A stretch of 64,000 nucleotides of DNA from Hyphomicrobiales bacterium (lineage in GTDB: Bacteria > Pseudomonadota > Alphaproteobacteria > Rhizobiales > Beijerinckiaceae), in contig JAIXZO010000001.1 in assembly GCA_027489535.1 (NCBI GenBank), positions 62,001 through 126,000 of the forward strand. Reading direction: 5' to 3'. Below are positions 1,191-33,913 of the stretch, in pieces. The first letter of the stretch is position 1. Each line of letters begins with the position of its first letter. The notes under the pieces were generated by a model. It was given only the letters and a program-made list of their open reading frames with translations. It was not told the origin of the DNA and ran no database searches. The position numbers and the translations under genes were made by a program.

Positions 1191-3795
1191 TGACGATCCT
1201 TTGCGGCACCACGATCACCTTCTTGACCGGACGATCTTCCAGTGCCTTGCGTACCGCGTCCAGTGCCATGACGGCGCTTTCGATGGCGGCCTGATCGGCG
1301 TCGCGGGGCACGGTGACGTCCGCGCGCTTCTTGCCGTTGACCTGCACGGGCAGCGTGATCTCGTCCTCGACGACGAGGTCGCGGTCGGCGACCGGCCATG
1401 CGGTCTCCGCGATCAGTCCGTCACGGCCAAGCGCCGCCCAGCACTCCTCCGCGAGATGCGGCATCATCGGGGCGACGATGCGCAGCAGGATGTCCGTCGC
1501 TTCGCGCAGTGCGGCGACGAGGTCGTCCGGGCAGGCCGTCTCCTGCGTGGCCATGGCGCTCTGCAGCGCGTTGGCCAGCTCGTAGACATGCGCGACGCAG
1601 CGGTTAAAGCGCAGGCGCTCCACGTCGGCTTCCGTGCTGATCAGGGCGCGGTGCGCCGCCTTGCGGACGGCCGTCGCGGCGGGTCCGAAGCTCGGCGCGG
1701 CCGATGCCGTCGGCAGGTCCGCTACGTCGTTGACGATGCGCCACAGGCGCTGGACGAAGCGGGCCGCGCCCTGCACGCCCTCCTCGGTCCAGATCACGTC
1801 GCGCTCGGGCGGCGAGTCCGACAGCATGAACCAACGTGCGGTATCCGCGCCGTACGTGCCTATGATGTCGTCGGGATCGACCGTGTTGCGCTTCGACTTC
1901 GACATCTTCTCGATCGAGCCGATCTCGACGGGCGCGCCCGAGGAGAGCAGCTGCGCGCGGCGTTCTCCGCCTTCGCTGACGATGCGGATCTCGGCCGGCG
2001 AAACCCACGCCCCGTCCGGGCCCTTATAGGTTTCGTGGACAACCATGCCCTGCGTGAACAGGCCCGCGAACGGCTCGTCGACGCCGGCATGTCCGGTCTT
2101 GTGCATCGCGCGGGTGAAGAAGCGCGAATAGAGCAGATGCAGGATCGCGTGCTCGATGCCGCCGATATACTGGTCCACCGGCAACCAGGCGTTCACCACC
2201 GCCGGGTCGGTCGGTTCCGTCTCGTTCCACGGGTCGGTGAAGCGCGCGAAATACCAGGACGAGTCGACGAACGTGTCCATCGTGTCCGTCTCGCGCCGCG
2301 CCGGGGCGGCACAATGCGGGCAGGGCACGTTCTTCCACGTCGCGTGGCGGTCCAGCGGATTGCCCGGCACGTCGAAGGTCACGTCGTCCGGCAGCTTCAC
2401 GGGAAGATCGGTCTTCGGCACAGGCACGACGCCGCAGGCGTCACAGTGGATCACCGGGATGGGGCAGCCCCAATAGCGCTGGCGCGAAATGCCCCAGTCG
2501 CGCAGGCGGAAATTGACCTTGCGCTCGGCGACGAGACGGCCGCCGCGCATTTCGGCTTCGAGCCGCTTGGCGACCTCTTCGCGCGCTTCGGCCGGCGTCA
2601 TCCCGTCGAGGAAGCGCGAATTGATCATGCGGCCTTCGCCGTCATAGGCGACGTCGGTGACGACGAAGCTCGCCGGGTTCGTGCCCTCGGGGCACACCAC
2701 CGGCTGCACGCCGAGTCCGTAGGCGTTGACGAAGTCGAGGTCGCGCTGGTCATGCGCCGGGCAGCCGAAGATCGCGCCCGTGCCGTATTCCATCAGCACG
2801 AAATTGGCGACATAGACCGGGACGGTCCAGGTCGGGTCGAAGGGATGGAGCGCGCGGATGCCCGTATCGAAGCCCTTCTTCTCGGCCTTCTCGATGTTTT
2901 CGAGCGCGGTGCCCATGCGCTTGCATTCGTCGATAAAGGCCGCGAGCGCCGGGTTCTTCTCCGCCGCAGCCCGCGCGAGCGGGTGGTCCGGCGCAAGCGC
3001 CATGAACTTCGCGCCGAACAGCGTGTCGGGCCGCGTGGTGTAGATGTCGAGATCGGTTTCGCCCGCGGGCGTCGTCGCCGCGTCGAGCGCGAAACGGACC
3101 TTCAGGCCTTCCGACCGTCCGATCCAGTTCTTCTGCATCGTCCGGACCTTTTCCGGCCAGCGGTCGAGGCCGTCGAGCGCGTCCAGCAGGTCTTGAGCGT
3201 GATCGGAGATCTTGAAGAACCACTGCGTCAGCTCGCGCTGCTCGACGAGCGCGCCCGAGCGCCAGCCGCGCCCGTCGATCACCTGCTCGTTGGCCAGCAC
3301 GGTCTGGTCGACCGGGTCCCAATTCACCTTCGCGGTTTTCCGGTCGATCAGGCCGGCCGCAAGGAAATCGAGGAACATGCGCTGCTGATGGCGATAATAG
3401 GCCGGATCGCAGGTGGCGATCTCGCGCTTCCAGTCGAGCGACAGGCCCATCGACTTCAGCTGATCGCGCATCGTCGCGATGTTTGCGTAGGTCCATGTCG
3501 CGGGATGGGTCTTGTTCGCCATCGCCGCATTTTCGGCCGGCATGCCGAACGCGTCCCAGCCCATCGGATGCAGCACGTTGAAGCCGCGCGCACGCTTGTA
3601 GCGCGCCACCACGTCGCCCATGGCGTAATTGCGGACGTGGCCCATATGGATGCGTCCCGACGGATAGGGAAACATCTCGAGCACGTAGTATTTCGGCCGC
3701 GGGTCATCGTTCCGGGTGTGGAACAGGCCCTTCTCTTCCCAGATGCTCCGCCATTTGGGCTCGGCTTCACGGGCGTTGTAACGCTCGGAGGTCAT
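1177..3795 (-). CDS. leuS: Leucyl-tRNA synthetase
   Basis: Class I aminoacyl-tRNA synthetase that charges tRNA-Leu in the cytoplasm. The HIGH motif is HMGH at residues 50-53 in [15 protein letters not shown], and [12 protein letters not shown] lies near residue 630. The editing (CP1) domain contains [23 protein letters not shown], and Zn-ribbon cysteine pairs are visible ([12 protein letters not shown]). The frame stays open upstream to 4128, but that part overlaps the divergent yggS gene and does not look like LeuRS; the ATG at 3795 ([15 protein letters not shown]) gives 872 residues, the normal size. The C-terminus ends [11 protein letters not shown], typical for the family. Confidence 0.97.
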
Positions 3796-27975: not shown

Positions 27976-29040
27976 ATGCCGTTCGCGACCGCCTGGTGGC
28001 AACCGGACCGCCACGCCGACCGCCGCCCTCTGCTGCTGGCGCGCAACCGCGTCAAGTCGGCGCTGCGCCGTTGGTTCGAAGCGCGCGACTTCGTGGAGGT
28101 CGAGTCGGGGCAGCTTCAGGTCTCGCCGGGCAACGAGACGCATCTGCACGGCTTGGGCACGGACGTCCGCGCGCCCGACGGCGTTTCGACCCGGTATTAC
28201 CTCCACACGTCGCCCGAATTCGCCTGCAAGAAGCTGCTGACCGCAGGCGAGCGCCGCATCTTCGATTTCGCCCGCGTGTTCCGGGACCGCGAGCGCGGTG
28301 CGCTGCATGCCCCCGAATTCACCATGCTCGAATGGTACCGCGTCGAGGAACCCTACGAGACGTTGATGGCAGATTGCGCGGCCCTGCTGGCGGAAGCCGC
28401 CGATGCCGCGGGCGCGACGCAGCTGCGATACCGCAACCGCACCGCCGATCCCTTCGCCGATCCCGAACGCCTCACGGTGCAGGAGGCGTTCGTGCGGTTC
28501 GCCGGCATCGATCTTCTCGCCGCCACGCCCGGCGGGATTCCCGATCTCGACGCCTTGGCGGCGGCCGCGCGCGGCGCGGGCATCCGCGTCGCCGACGACG
28601 ACACATGGTCCGACGTGTTCAGCCGGGTGCTTGTGGAGCGCATCGAACCCGAGCTCGGCATCGGGCGGCCGACAGTGCTCTGCGAATATCCGGTCCATGA
28701 AGCCGCGCTCGCCCGCCCCAAGCCGTCCGATCCCCGCGTCGCGGAGCGGTTCGAGCTTTATGCCTGCGGCGTCGAGCTCGCCAACGGCTTCGGCGAGCTG
28801 ACCGACGCCGTCGAGCAGCGCCGCCGCTTCGTCGTCGACATGGACGCGATGCAGGCGATCTACGGCGAGCGCTACCCCATCGACGAGGAGTTTATGGCCG
28901 CGCTGGCGCTCATGCCGCAGGCTTCGGGCATCGCCTTGGGCTTCGACCGCCTCGTGATGCTCGCGACCGGCGCGCCGCGCATCGAAGACGTGCTATGGAC
29001 GCCGTTTCCCGCTCCGCACGAGACCCGTCGCGAACGATGA
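27976..29040 (+). CDS. epmA: EF-P lysine lysyltransferase EpmA (GenX/PoxA)
   Basis: Class II lysyl-tRNA-synthetase paralogue without the anticodon-binding domain that attaches beta-lysine to EF-P. Motif 2 is [20 protein letters not shown], followed by [11 protein letters not shown], and motif 3 is [20 protein letters not shown]. The substrate-pocket segment [16 protein letters not shown] is also conserved. The 354-residue length matches the EpmA type. It overlaps epmB by 4 bases (ATGA) and is divergent from efp, its expected substrate. Confidence 0.95.
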
Positions 29041-30119
29041 CCGCCTCCGCCCGAACGCTCCGCACCCCGGCGGACCTGCTTGCCGCCGATCTCGTTCCGC
29101 ATGAGGCGCTGCCCGCGCTCGAGCGGGTCGCGGCCCGCTATGCGGTGGCGATCACCCCGGCCATGGCGGCCCTCATCGATCCGTCCGACCCCGCCGATCC
29201 CATCGCGCGGCAATTCGTGCCGAATGCTGCGGAGCTGGTCGAGCATCCCGACGAGCGCGAAGACCCCATCGACGATCACGGTCACAGCCCGCTGCCCGGC
29301 CTCGTGCATCGCTATCCGGACCGGGTGCTGCTGAAACTCGTCCACACCTGCCCGGTCTATTGCCGCTTCTGTTTTCGCCGCGAGATGGTCGGGCCCGGCA
29401 AGGCGGACGCGCTGACCGTCGAGGACGTCGACCGCATCCTCGCTTACGTCGCCGAGCGCCCTGCGATCTGGGAAGTCGTCGTCACCGGAGGCGACCCCTT
29501 CGTGCTGTCGCCGCGCCGCGTGGCGGAGGTCACCCGCCGTCTCGCCGCGATCGATCACGTCAAGGTCGTGCGGTGGCATACGCGCGTGCCCGTCGTCGCC
29601 CCCGATCTCGTCACCCCGGACCTTGCGGCGGCGTTGCGCGCCGAAGGCGTGGCGACATGGGTCGCGGTGCACGCCAATCACCCGCGCGAATTCACGGCCG
29701 AAGCGCGTGCCGCCTGCGCCCGCCTTGCCGATGCCGGCATCGCGCTGTTGGGGCAGTCGGTCTTGCTGCGGGGCGTCAACGACGATCCGTCCACCTTGGC
29801 CGCCCTCATGCGCGGCTTCGTCGAGAACCGGATCAAGCCATATTACCTGCACCATCCGGATCTCGCCCCCGGCACCGGCCATATGCGCCTCGGCATCGCG
29901 GAAGGCCAAGCTCTGATGCGGTCGCTGCAGCGCGACGCCTCGGGCCTGTGTCGGCCCGTTTACGTGCTCGACGTGCCCGGGGGCTCCGGGAAGGTGCCGA
30001 TCGGCCCGTGCCATCTTGCTCCGGGCGACGCGTCGGCAGACGGTTCCGAATCGTGGTCCGTCGAGACGCTCGGGGGAAATGCCGTGGCCTATCCTCCGAT
30101 ACGAAACGATTTGGATTAG
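29037..30119 (+). CDS. epmB: EF-P beta-lysylation protein EpmB (lysine 2,3-aminomutase-like)
   Basis: Radical SAM enzyme that converts L-lysine to R-beta-lysine for EpmA. The 4Fe-4S motif is CPVYCRFCFRREMVG, the SAM-binding GGDPF occurs in VVVTGGDPFVLSPRRV, and the PLP-binding lysine is in VPGGSGKVPIGP. RWHTRVPVVAPDLVT and YYLHHPDLAPGTGHMRLGI are typical. The start is ATG 29037, overlapping the epmA stop, giving 360 residues; upstream sequence in frame belongs to the epmA end. It overlaps the convergent small regulator by 4 bases at its stop. Confidence 0.94.
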   Translation: MTASARTLRTPADLLAADLVPHEALPALERVAARYAVAITPAMAALIDPSDPADPIARQFVPNAAELVEHPDEREDPIDDHGHSPLPGLVHRYPDRVLLKLVHTCPVYCRFCFRREMVGPGKADALTVEDVDRILAYVAERPAIWEVVVTGGDPFVLSPRRVAEVTRRLAAIDHVKVVRWHTRVPVVAPDLVTPDLAAALRAEGVATWVAVHANHPREFTAEARAACARLADAGIALLGQSVLLRGVNDDPSTLAALMRGFVENRIKPYYLHHPDLAPGTGHMRLGIAEGQALMRSLQRDASGLCRPVYVLDVPGGSGKVPIGPCHLAPGDASADGSESWSVETLGGNAVAYPPIRNDLD

Positions 30120-30439
30120 GGACAGGCCTTTAACCGCTCCCGATACTCGACCATCAGGCCGTTCAGACGCGGCGTGCAGACGAACGAGCGCCGCCGTCCG
30201 TCGGCGCCGGTGCGGATCTCGATCAGCCCCTCGGATTCCAGCAATCGTATGATCGAGCGCACCCGGCTCTCGCTGTGGGGGACGCTCCGGTACAAGTCCT
30301 TCATCGACTGGTTACGCCGCGACATCTGCAGGTCATAGGCGTGCAGCAGCACGTCGTAGACGATCGCGGAATCGGTGAACCGCTCCGCGTCCGTCGTCCA
30401 TCGTCGCAATGCGATCAGCCAAGTCGAAAAATCGGTCAT
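30116..30439 (-). CDS. Small winged-helix (MarR-like) transcription regulator
   Basis: 107-residue putative DNA-binding protein. The segment NQSMKDLYRSVPHSESRVRS followed by IIRLLESEGLIEIRTGADGR and RRSFVCTPRLN is a helix-turn-helix plus beta wing of MarR style, close to the short wHTH regulators common in Rhizobiales. There is no ligand or receiver domain. It is convergent with epmB (4-base overlap), and the next gene upstream is the kinase-USP gene on the same strand about 190 bases away, so its targets are unknown. Confidence 0.7.
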   Translation of the reverse strand: MTDFSTWLIALRRWTTDAERFTDSAIVYDVLLHAYDLQMSRRNQSMKDLYRSVPHSESRVRSIIRLLESEGLIEIRTGADGRRRSFVCTPRLNGLMVEYRERLKACP

Positions 30440-30632: not shown

Positions 30633-32075
30633 TCAGGCCTCTGCGTCCGCGGAGGCTTCAGCGTCGCGGGATTCGGCCGTCCCGCGCGCCCGCACCACGG
30701 TCACCGTGCACGGCGCCTGCGCCGCCACCTGAGAAGACACGCTGCCCAGATACCGCCGCATCGCCGAATGCCCCCGCGCACCCAGTACCAGATGGTCGAC
30801 CTGATTGTGGCGCACGTAATCGAGCAGGACCTCTGCCGGGTCCACGCCTTCCAGCACGTGCAGGCTCAGCGATTCCGCACCGAGGTCGAGCGGTCTCGCC
30901 CATTCCTTCAACGCCACCAGACGCTTGAGGTAGATGTTCTGGCCGCTCGGGTCGAGCCTCTCGTCGATGCGCACCAGCGACGTCTTCAGCACGGTCGCGC
31001 AGACGAACCGCGCTGCCGGGTCGCCCTTGAGCAAGCTTCGCACCTGCCGTCTCACCGCGTCGTGGATCGCTTCATGGTCGTCGGCGGAGAGGTCGAGCGC
31101 CGCCATCACGATGGGGGCACGGTCCAAGCGGTCGGCCACGCGGGCGACCGGCCCGCTCTTGCGGTCGTTGCCGCGCCACCAGCTCTTCACGTTGTCGACG
31201 AAACCGGGGCCGCGGACGCGTTGCGCACGGTCGGTCAGCACCACCTGATCGGGGTTCTGCAGCGCATGGGCCAGCTGTCCGGCCGTCTGGAACCGGTCGT
31301 CCGGGTCCACTTCGAGACAGCGCAGGATCACCTCCTGCAGCCACAAGGGACAATGCGGGACGACCGCACGCGGCGGCGCGGGGTCTTGGAACAGGCGGCG
31401 GCGCATGCCGGTGCGGCTCTGCGGATTGCCGAAGGGCAGACGCCCGGTAGTCATTTCATAAAGCACGCAGCCGAGCGCGAAGATGTCGCTGCGCGGATCG
31501 GTGCGGATGCCCAGCACCTGTTCCGGCGCGATATAGGCCGCGGTGCCGATCGGCATGTCGGATTCCTCCGCCAGCAGATCGGGCAACTCGTCGTGCCGCG
31601 CGAGGCCGTAATCCAGCAGCACCGCCGGCCCGTCCTCGCGGAACATGATGTTGGCGGGCTTGATGTCGAAATGGATGACGTGCCGACGATGGACGTCGCC
31701 GAGCGCGCCGGCGATCTTCCCCCCCATCCACGCCACCTGTTCGGGGGCCAGCGGCGCATCGCGCACGCGGACCTCAAGCGATTTGCCGGGGATGCGCTCC
31801 ATCACGAGATAGGGCAGCACCGCGAAGTCGCCCGCCGCGATGCATTGCGGCACGTGCGGCCCCGACAGGCGCGGCAGGATCATGTGCTCGACTTCAAATC
31901 CGATGATGGCGGACGGATCGTCGCCCTCGCCGAGAAACGGGATCTTCATCAGCATCGGCCGCTTCTCGCCGGGCTTGGTCACCCGCCACAACCGCGCCAT
32001 GCCGCCGCGATGGACTTCTTCCTCCAGCCGGAAGCCGTCGATGATCTGTCCGGGCGTGAACTTGTCCTGATGCAT
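30633..32075 (-). CDS. Serine/threonine protein kinase fused to a universal stress protein domain
   Basis: 480-residue protein. Residues about 15-270 are a Hanks-type kinase: Lys44 in MLMKIPF, Asp137/Lys139/Asn142 in HVIHFDIKPANIMF, Asp155 in LLDYGLARH, and AAYIAPEQVLG. HFD replaces the usual HRD and DYG replaces DFG, so it is a non-RD kinase. Residues about 325-465 are a UspA domain with the ATP-binding pattern GARGHSAMRRYLGS. No membrane segment or sensor domain is seen. ATG 32075 lies 2 bases after the stop of the metallophosphoesterase, suggesting translational coupling. The domain order kinase-then-USP is notable. Confidence 0.88.
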   Translation of the reverse strand: MHQDKFTPGQIIDGFRLEEEVHRGGMARLWRVTKPGEKRPMLMKIPFLGEGDDPSAIIGFEVEHMILPRLSGPHVPQCIAAGDFAVLPYLVMERIPGKSLEVRVRDAPLAPEQVAWMGGKIAGALGDVHRRHVIHFDIKPANIMFREDGPAVLLDYGLARHDELPDLLAEESDMPIGTAAYIAPEQVLGIRTDPRSDIFALGCVLYEMTTGRLPFGNPQSRTGMRRRLFQDPAPPRAVVPHCPLWLQEVILRCLEVDPDDRFQTAGQLAHALQNPDQVVLTDRAQRVRGPGFVDNVKSWWRGNDRKSGPVARVADRLDRAPIVMAALDLSADDHEAIHDAVRRQVRSLLKGDPAARFVCATVLKTSLVRIDERLDPSGQNIYLKRLVALKEWARPLDLGAESLSLHVLEGVDPAEVLLDYVRHNQVDHLVLGARGHSAMRRYLGSVSSQVAAQAPCTVTVVRARGTAESRDAEASADAEA

Positions 32076-32077
32076 CG

Positions 32078-32818
32078 TCACCTTCCCCGATAAAGCCGTT
32101 CGGCCAAGGACGTCGGCAGTCCCGCGTCGCGGATCTTGGTCGCGGCGGCGTCGACGTCGTAGGGCACGCGGCGATAGACGATCTCGCGCGTATCGGTGTC
32201 GTAGACCGCCCAGCAGGCGGCCGCCATGCCGTCGCGCGGCTGGCCGACGGATCCGATCACGGCGAGCCAGCAGCGCGAGGTCAAGAACGGCACCGGCCTG
32301 TCGGGCACCGGCACGAAGGGTGCGGCGGGCCGGGCCGGACTCATATGGTAGATCACCGGCACATGGGTGTGCCCGCAAAAGGTCGCGCGCGCATCGGTCT
32401 TGCGCATGCTGCGCTCGGCCTCGTCCGGGCCCGTCACATAGCCCCAGCTTTCCGGCGACCAACCGTTGGCGTGCACGTAAAGCCGATCGTCCTCGCGCAC
32501 GCTCAGGGGCAGCGCCTTCAGCCAGGCGGTCTGCGCCGCGTCGAGCTTCCCGCGCGTCCAGCGGATCGCGGCCTGCGCCCGCGAATTCATGTCCTCGTCG
32601 GAGCCGAACACCGCGGCGTCGTGATTGCCGAGCAACGCCGTCGCCCCGTCATCGACCAACCGCGCGCAGACGTCGACGACCCAGGACGGATCGGCCCCGT
32701 AGCCCACGAAGTCGCCGAGCAGCACCATCCGGTCGTATCCGCGCCGTCGCGCATCCGCGAGGCAAGCCTCGAAGGCTTCGCGATTGGCATGGATGTCGGT
32801 CAAAAAGACGATGCGCAA
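32078..32818 (-). CDS. Calcineurin-like metallophosphoesterase
   Basis: 246-residue phosphoesterase with all dimetal-site blocks: FLTDIHANREAF (Asp8, His10), VLLGDFVGYGADP (Asp36), ALLGNHDAAVFG and FCGHTHVPVIYH. The compact form resembles YfcE/diadenosine tetraphosphatase-like enzymes that act on small phospho-compounds or phosphoproteins; the substrate is not determined. Its gene runs directly into the kinase-USP gene (2-base gap), so the two enzymes are probably made together and may have opposing roles, although this is inference. Confidence 0.88.
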   Translation of the reverse strand: MRIVFLTDIHANREAFEACLADARRRGYDRMVLLGDFVGYGADPSWVVDVCARLVDDGATALLGNHDAAVFGSDEDMNSRAQAAIRWTRGKLDAAQTAWLKALPLSVREDDRLYVHANGWSPESWGYVTGPDEAERSMRKTDARATFCGHTHVPVIYHMSPARPAAPFVPVPDRPVPFLTSRCWLAVIGSVGQPRDGMAAACWAVYDTDTREIVYRRVPYDVDAAATKIRDAGLPTSLAERLYRGR

Positions 32819-32896: not shown

Positions 32897-33913
32897 TCAG
32901 GGCTTGATCAGGACGGTACGGGCGTAAGGCGTGAGATCCGCAGCGATCGCGGTCCAAGGGATCGTCACGGATTGCGGCCCGTGCACATAGGCCGCCACCT
33001 CGTAGACGTTGAACAGCAGCGAAAGACCGTCGGCCTCGAAGGTCCAGCGCTCGGGTTCCGCCACGTCCTTTTCGAGATGGTCCTCGAAGTCGCCGAACAG
33101 GCCGTCGCCGAGTTCCTTGCGGAGTTCCGCCGCGACGAGCGCCTTGAGGCGGCCCGCCGCGGGACGCGACGCGAAGACGTCGTCGAAGGTCAGGGCACGG
33201 CGCTCGTCGAGGCGGAGATGCCGGAACGACGCGCCGGATATCGGATGCGCCGCACCGTGCCCGTAGGTCTCGCCCGAGATCGTCAGCGTCGCGATGCCGG
33301 GGCGCGGCAGCGAAAGCGACACGTCGAGCCGCGTGTCGCTCGCCTTGTCCTCGGTCGGTGCGGCCGCGACGGCTCCGGCCGCCTCGCCGTTGAGGAAGTC
33401 CGTCGTCGGATTTTCGGGCGACGCGATGAAGGGGCGTTCGATCACATGCACCGCGACCGGGCGAAATCCTCCCGCCGACTTGTCCGCATTCACCATGCGG
33501 AAGCGCTGCACCGGAACGACGGCGAACGGCCCGATCGTCTGCGGAAGGCGGTTCAGCAGGGCGATGCGTTCTTCATAGCCGCGCAACAGGCATGCCGCGG
33601 CCTCCTTGGCGTTCTTGAACACGCGGCCCTTGCCGTCGTCGGAGCAGAAGGCGGGGAGATAGGGGATCCATTCGCGTTGCCCCACGCGCAGATGCCCGCG
33701 CGCCTCTTCACTCAACCGCTCCGCGGCGCCCTTGTAGGCGGCCGCGAGGGCCTCGTCGGCGCTCGAGAGCGCGGGCGTCCCGCAGATCAGCTTTTCGTGG
33801 GGCCGCGCGGCCTTGGCGCAGTCGAAGCTCGCCGCGAGGGCGGGAGAGGCGCCCGCCGTCGCCAGGACGGCAAGCGATACGGCAACGAAGACGGTGAGGA
33901 TACGCGACATCAT
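32897..33913 (-). CDS. Secreted protein with LprI-like N-terminus and DUF3298-like C-terminus
   Basis: 338-residue exported protein. The signal peptide is MMSRILTVFVAVSLAVLATA, with cleavage near ALA-ASFDC. The mature N-terminus has the LprI pattern: FDCAKAARPHEKLICGTPAL followed by SSADEALAAAYKGA and a C-containing CLLRGYEERI. The C-terminal half (GETYGHGAAHPISGASFRHL followed by RLDERRALTFDDVF) matches the DUF3298 style seen in bacterial secreted proteins. LprI proteins are known as lysozyme inhibitors in some species; that function cannot be claimed here. Confidence 0.72.
   Translation of the reverse strand: MMSRILTVFVAVSLAVLATAGASPALAASFDCAKAARPHEKLICGTPALSSADEALAAAYKGAAERLSEEARGHLRVGQREWIPYLPAFCSDDGKGRVFKNAKEAAACLLRGYEERIALLNRLPQTIGPFAVVPVQRFRMVNADKSAGGFRPVAVHVIERPFIASPENPTTDFLNGEAAGAVAAAPTEDKASDTRLDVSLSLPRPGIATLTISGETYGHGAAHPISGASFRHLRLDERRALTFDDVFASRPAAGRLKALVAAELRKELGDGLFGDFEDHLEKDVAEPERWTFEADGLSLLFNVYEVAAYVHGPQSVTIPWTAIAADLTPYARTVLIKP

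Follow-up and report, generated by a model that had tools for sequence, protein, structure and literature searches.

A calcineurin-like metallophosphoesterase (MPE) and a fusion of a Ser/Thr kinase with a universal stress protein (USP) domain form a real and conserved two-gene unit, which represents a variant of the known theme of kinase–phosphatase pairs. The useful addition is the conserved MPE partner; the kinase-USP fusion itself has been on record since a survey of 2005 (PMC1262709). The pair is located on the minus strand of the window, i.e. the whole 64,000-nucleotide stretch of DNA that was analysed, and comprises the following features:

32078..32818, minus strand: calcineurin-like metallophosphoesterase (MPE), 246 amino acids, TTG start
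30633..32075, minus strand: bifunctional Ser/Thr kinase / universal stress protein fusion, 480 amino acids, open reading frame with ATG start
31266..32051, minus strand: kinase domain of the fusion, residues about 9–270, non-RD type
30687..31115, minus strand: USP domain of the fusion, residues about 321–463, with the Arg-rich phosphate-loop motif GARGHSAMRRYLGS, one residue shorter than the canonical form
32076..32090, minus strand: MPE/kinase gene junction with a 2-bp gap and the Shine-Dalgarno-like stretch GGGAAGG

Organization of the gene pair

The MPE gene precedes the fusion, whose ATG follows 2 bases after the MPE stop codon. ORF calls and Pfam matches agree with the first-pass annotation in the coordinates, length, domain order and spacing of the fusion, and a Metallophos match bears out the calcineurin-type phosphoesterase gene directly in front of it. 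The ribosome-site-like stretch of the kinase is situated inside the last MPE codons, which, in combination with the narrow gap, suggests translational coupling. A further Shine-Dalgarno-like stretch (GGGAG) is found about 8 nt upstream of the TTG start of the MPE. A scan of the locus for promoters and terminators gave no signal above chance. An ORF of 494 amino acids on the strand opposite to the pair was considered a shadow ORF, a product of the GC-rich coding sequence.

Distribution and co-occurrence

In a sample of 297 genomes of the order, counting full-length matches with E below 1e-100 as fusion and matches with E below 1e-30 as MPE, the fusion is present in 36 and the MPE in 38 genomes. 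Both genes are found together in 35 genomes spanning eight families (Fisher p = 7e-41, a value to be taken as descriptive, since the sampled genomes share ancestry). In all 35 the MPE lies upstream on the same strand with 5–133 bases between the matched segments, so that 35 of the 36 fusion carriers possess an MPE directly in front of the fusion. Once start codons are assigned, the gap in 58 pairs has a median of 5.5 bp, with a few overlaps of 4 bp. The pair also occurs in other alphaproteobacterial orders and, beyond Alphaproteobacteria, in further classes of the phylum. Annotated records place the MPE directly upstream of the fusion in Pseudoroseomonas, Rhodobacter and Bosea (across the record origin), and in Shinella the pair is present and unannotated. 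A scan of assembly contigs for relatives yielded two matches only, both very close. Altogether, the proposal of a two-gene unit is strongly supported; frequent separation of the two genes in relatives, which would speak against it, was looked for and the opposite was found.

The sole fusion of the order lacking an MPE belongs to genome G295, where the first MPE codons (MKIAILSDI) run directly into sequence starting from kinase residue 32 (locus L043, G295:C28:17363-24670). This junction is the remnant of a deletion in a decayed copy and shows that G295 once had the pair. An MPE relative without fusion is found in three genomes (G171, G207 and G294), among them close relatives with no kinase at 2998–3738 of locus L078 (G171) and 2950–3741 of locus L079 (G207). 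As the only lone fusion is a remnant, whereas the MPE occurs by itself in three genomes, the fusion seems more dependent on the MPE than the MPE on the fusion.

The trees of MPE and fusion are correlated with r = 0.80, the best of 2000 permutations reaching 0.19. A survey of 46 loci, each extended by up to 10 kb in either direction, revealed only two gene clusters present in most loci, the fusion (46) and the MPE (40; apart from the G295 remnant, the others were missed by automatic ORF selection), followed by generic ABC transporters (11). Since no further conserved neighbour gene was found in these 46 loci, the unit stands alone. The fixed gene order, the tight spacing, the joint inheritance and the correlated trees point to two products working on the same thing. 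It could be argued that the genes are merely co-expressed and that the MPE has its place in metabolism or some other pathway, acting on neither the kinase nor its ligand. Lone MPE relatives, as well as more distant ones situated on plasmids next to unrelated genes, are in line with this view, but the nearly perfect co-occurrence and a gene order maintained across many families, amid otherwise changing neighbours, make it unlikely.

Kinase domain

The N-terminal part of the fusion matches Pkinase (PF00069) with 107 bits over residues 23–270. It displays a GGM glycine loop, Lys44, Glu61/Glu63, the HFD motif (residues 135–137), Lys139, Asn142, the DYG motif (residues 155–157), an acidic HxxLPDLLxEE segment, and GT and APE motifs. 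Thus the catalytic Lys, Glu, HxD Asp, Asn and DFG-type Asp of a Hanks-type Ser/Thr kinase are all in place, and the HFD and DYG variants described in the first-pass annotation are indeed present. Across 60 homologues, Lys44, Glu61, Glu63, His135, Asp137, Lys139, Asp155 and Gly157 are invariant, and position 142 is occupied by Asn in 53 and by Ser in 7 sequences. The arginine that defines RD-type kinases is absent from all 60 (HLD in 46, HHD in 9, HFD in 5), hence HFD represents one variant of a non-RD state that is general in the family. DYG is the minority form in the same set (18 versus 42 with DFG).

The deviation of HFD and DYG from HRD and DFG, together with matches of the kinase domain to PADLOC PD-T4-6 profiles (2e-62), might indicate a pseudokinase or, alternatively, a kinase of the defence type like PD-T4-6. 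This is very improbable, given that all catalytic residues are invariant, that DFG outnumbers DYG among the homologues and that the 46 loci show no conserved defence gene next to the pair. The PD-T4-6 identity was rejected, the matches reflecting generic Hanks kinase similarity.

In the activation loop an HxxxPDLxxEE motif is conserved, and a conserved phosphorylatable residue is absent before the P+1 Thr/Ser. The missing RD arginine in combination with the acidic PDLxxEE segment makes control by activation-loop phosphorylation unlikely and control by the USP domain more likely. Judging from these motifs, the kinase may be active without loop phosphorylation or be controlled via another part of the protein, such as the USP domain.

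USP domain

Residues 323–462 match Usp (PF00582) with 58.3 bits against a gathering cut-off of 24, which places the domain within the family. The canonical ATP motif G-2x-G-9x-G(S/T) is found in none of 60 homologues, and a version with 8 instead of 9 residues occurs in 12 of them, including the window protein. Most homologues display the pattern GAR-x-x-S-x-x-R-x-x-LGSVS, in which the arginines are conserved and the second glycine is mostly missing. The closest solved USP relatives include the ATP-binding proteins 1wjg/2z08, 3s3t and TeaD (3hgm), compared to which the inter-glycine loop of the fusion is one residue shorter. Consequently, the description of the domain as ATP-binding is not confirmed, and the suggestion that it senses ATP is weakened by the degenerate motif. 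Shortened motifs of the type G-2x-G-5/12x-G(S/T) are still able to retain the ATP pocket (PMC12159084), so ATP might yet be bound, or the ligand of the predicted USP site may be a different one. In a distant branch (loci L061–L067; same phylum, other class) the phosphate loop is lost and the final GS is gone (GASHKLPNKVTPWRTS). Despite this degradation, the kinase and MPE sites of the branch are intact.

Metallophosphoesterase

The MPE matches Metallophos (PF00149) with 57.8 bits and Metallophos_2 with 52.5 bits. Its metal ligands are Asp8, His10, Asp36, Asn65, His66, His116, His150 and His152, and a GSVGQPRD signature is located in the C-terminal part. Among 62 homologues the DxH, GD, GNHD, H and GHxH ligands of calcineurin-like enzymes are 98–100% conserved; the motifs GQPRD and LPxxLxxRL are conserved as well. 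The GDxxxRG signature of PPP-family protein phosphatases is found in none of them. Compared with solved structures, the MPE family profile matches, in this order, 3rqz, archaeal MPEs (1nnw, 2gju), 3qfm, probably an Ap4A hydrolase of Streptococcus pneumoniae, and several diadenosine tetraphosphatases (2qjc, ApaH); no PPP protein phosphatase was found among these matches. The match to 3rqz, an uncharacterised MPE according to its record, is full-length (E 5e-58) and extends to a common GxVGQPRDG signature and a C-terminal LPxSLxxRLxxG motif. The similarity to named Ap4A hydrolases amounts to E values of 1e-7 to 4e-4, mainly over the N-terminal half, which holds the common metal site, and the curated score for ApaH (PRK00166) is 25 bits against a cut-off of 176.

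The proposal that the phosphoesterase opposes the kinase is therefore possible, but the enzyme is not of the PPP type by signature, and among named relatives the Ap4A hydrolases come nearest to it. These relatives are better matched by a different role, in which the MPE would be an Ap4A-like (di)nucleotide hydrolase, and not a protein phosphatase, removing the ligand that the USP domain senses, so that the kinase reads the level of this ligand and the MPE resets it. Ligands of USP domains include ATP, cAMP and c-di-AMP; the binding of c-di-AMP to the USP domain of the kinase KdpD sets a precedent for a nucleotide sensor within a kinase (PMC4686210; PMC11018627). The ability of shortened motifs to keep the ATP pocket (see above) would also fit. 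KdpD is, however, a histidine or atypical serine kinase and not of the Hanks type. We know of no MPE partner of KdpD. Named Ap4A hydrolases resemble the MPE only weakly, and the distant branch with the further degraded phosphate loop (GASHKLPNKVTPWRTS) nevertheless keeps its MPE. Taken together, a nucleotide-hydrolysing role appears possible but doubtful.

Proposed mechanism and closest systems

The reading we prefer, plausible without being quite probable, is that of a co-inherited cytosolic unit composed of an active non-RD kinase, a USP domain controlling it in cis, and an MPE antagonist. MPE and kinase-USP would act as a single signalling unit, in which the C-terminal USP domain might control the Hanks-type kinase, whether by binding a nucleotide-like ligand or by becoming phosphorylated itself. 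The MPE, presumably co-translated, would strip phosphate from the kinase-USP protein or from kinase substrates and may dock on the USP domain in the manner of PP2A on SaUspA (see below). What is observed is the presence of both domains and of intact catalytic residues, the unvarying order of the genes, their co-occurrence and the correlation of their trees; enzyme activity, the USP domain as regulator and an action of the MPE on a phosphoprotein are presumed parts of the model. The missing PPP signature and solved relatives named as Ap4A hydrolases, not protein phosphatases, argue against an antagonist, and the MPE relatives lacking a fusion indicate that the MPE can act alone. Adjacency and tree correlation are partly explained by shared ancestry. 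AlphaFold2 models based on three-sequence alignments had mean pLDDT values of 46 and 36 and are unusable.

To our knowledge, only a minority of proteobacterial Hanks kinases have an identified cognate partner, and likewise few USP domains have an identified ligand. Only tentatively can the pair be regarded as an undescribed proteobacterial stress module, in which the kinase-USP protein would read a nucleotide via its non-canonical Arg-rich USP site and would be reset by a dedicated MPE instead of a PP2C or PPP phosphatase. A fixed pair whose active sites are intact provides a directly testable kinase, sensor and off-switch on one 2.2-kb fragment, which can be transferred to laboratory strains.

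Proteins named 'bifunctional serine/threonine-protein kinase/universal stress protein' in RefSeq (e.g. WP_271138123.1, WP_096787577.1) share architecture and length with the window fusion at about 50% identity and differ in nothing essential; the product name comes without tested function. No NCBIfam model is passed by the fusion. The 2005 survey reports proteins with Ser/Thr kinase and USPA domains in Mesorhizobium loti and Bradyrhizobium japonicum and proposes that they are stress responsive (PMC1262709). Going by this description, these Hyphomicrobiales kinases resemble the window fusion in their makeup, and the passages of the survey on them do not mention an MPE partner. A search for MPE pairing among open-licence papers found no paper, an absence that constitutes weak evidence.

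The closest functional precedent, of which the pair would be a compact version, is the ArnC–SaUspA–PP2A system of Sulfolobus acidocaldarius. There, the kinase ArnC phosphorylates SaUspA, which binds and stimulates PP2A, and ATP enhances this binding (PMC7693658). As in the pair, a protein kinase, a USP and a phosphatase of the metallophosphoesterase fold are involved, and in Sulfolobus they act on each other; the system differs in that each component is a protein of its own, that the phosphatase is a genuine PP2A homologue and that SaUspA binds ATP (PMC7693658). The statement of the first-pass annotation that no characterised system has exactly this arrangement is accordingly fair for the operon. 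It does not extend to the fusion, reported in 2005 and named in RefSeq, and it is qualified by the Sulfolobus system, in which kinase, USP and phosphatase cooperate, though as separate proteins.

Surroundings of the pair in the window

Upstream of the MPE, on the same strand and at a distance of 78 bp, lies a gene for a DUF3298 / LprI-domain protein (32897–33832, minus strand), which is not conserved beside the pair in relatives. Downstream of the kinase, a small protein is encoded at 30116–30439 (minus strand), which by eye has the look of a winged-helix regulator and has no Pfam match. A gene for a class II lysyl-tRNA-synthetase-like (EpmA-like) protein followed by a radical SAM (EpmB-like) gene is located at 27976–30119 (plus strand). 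Both adjoin an EF-P-like ORF on the other strand, and the arrangement resembles a gene cluster for the modification of elongation factor P.
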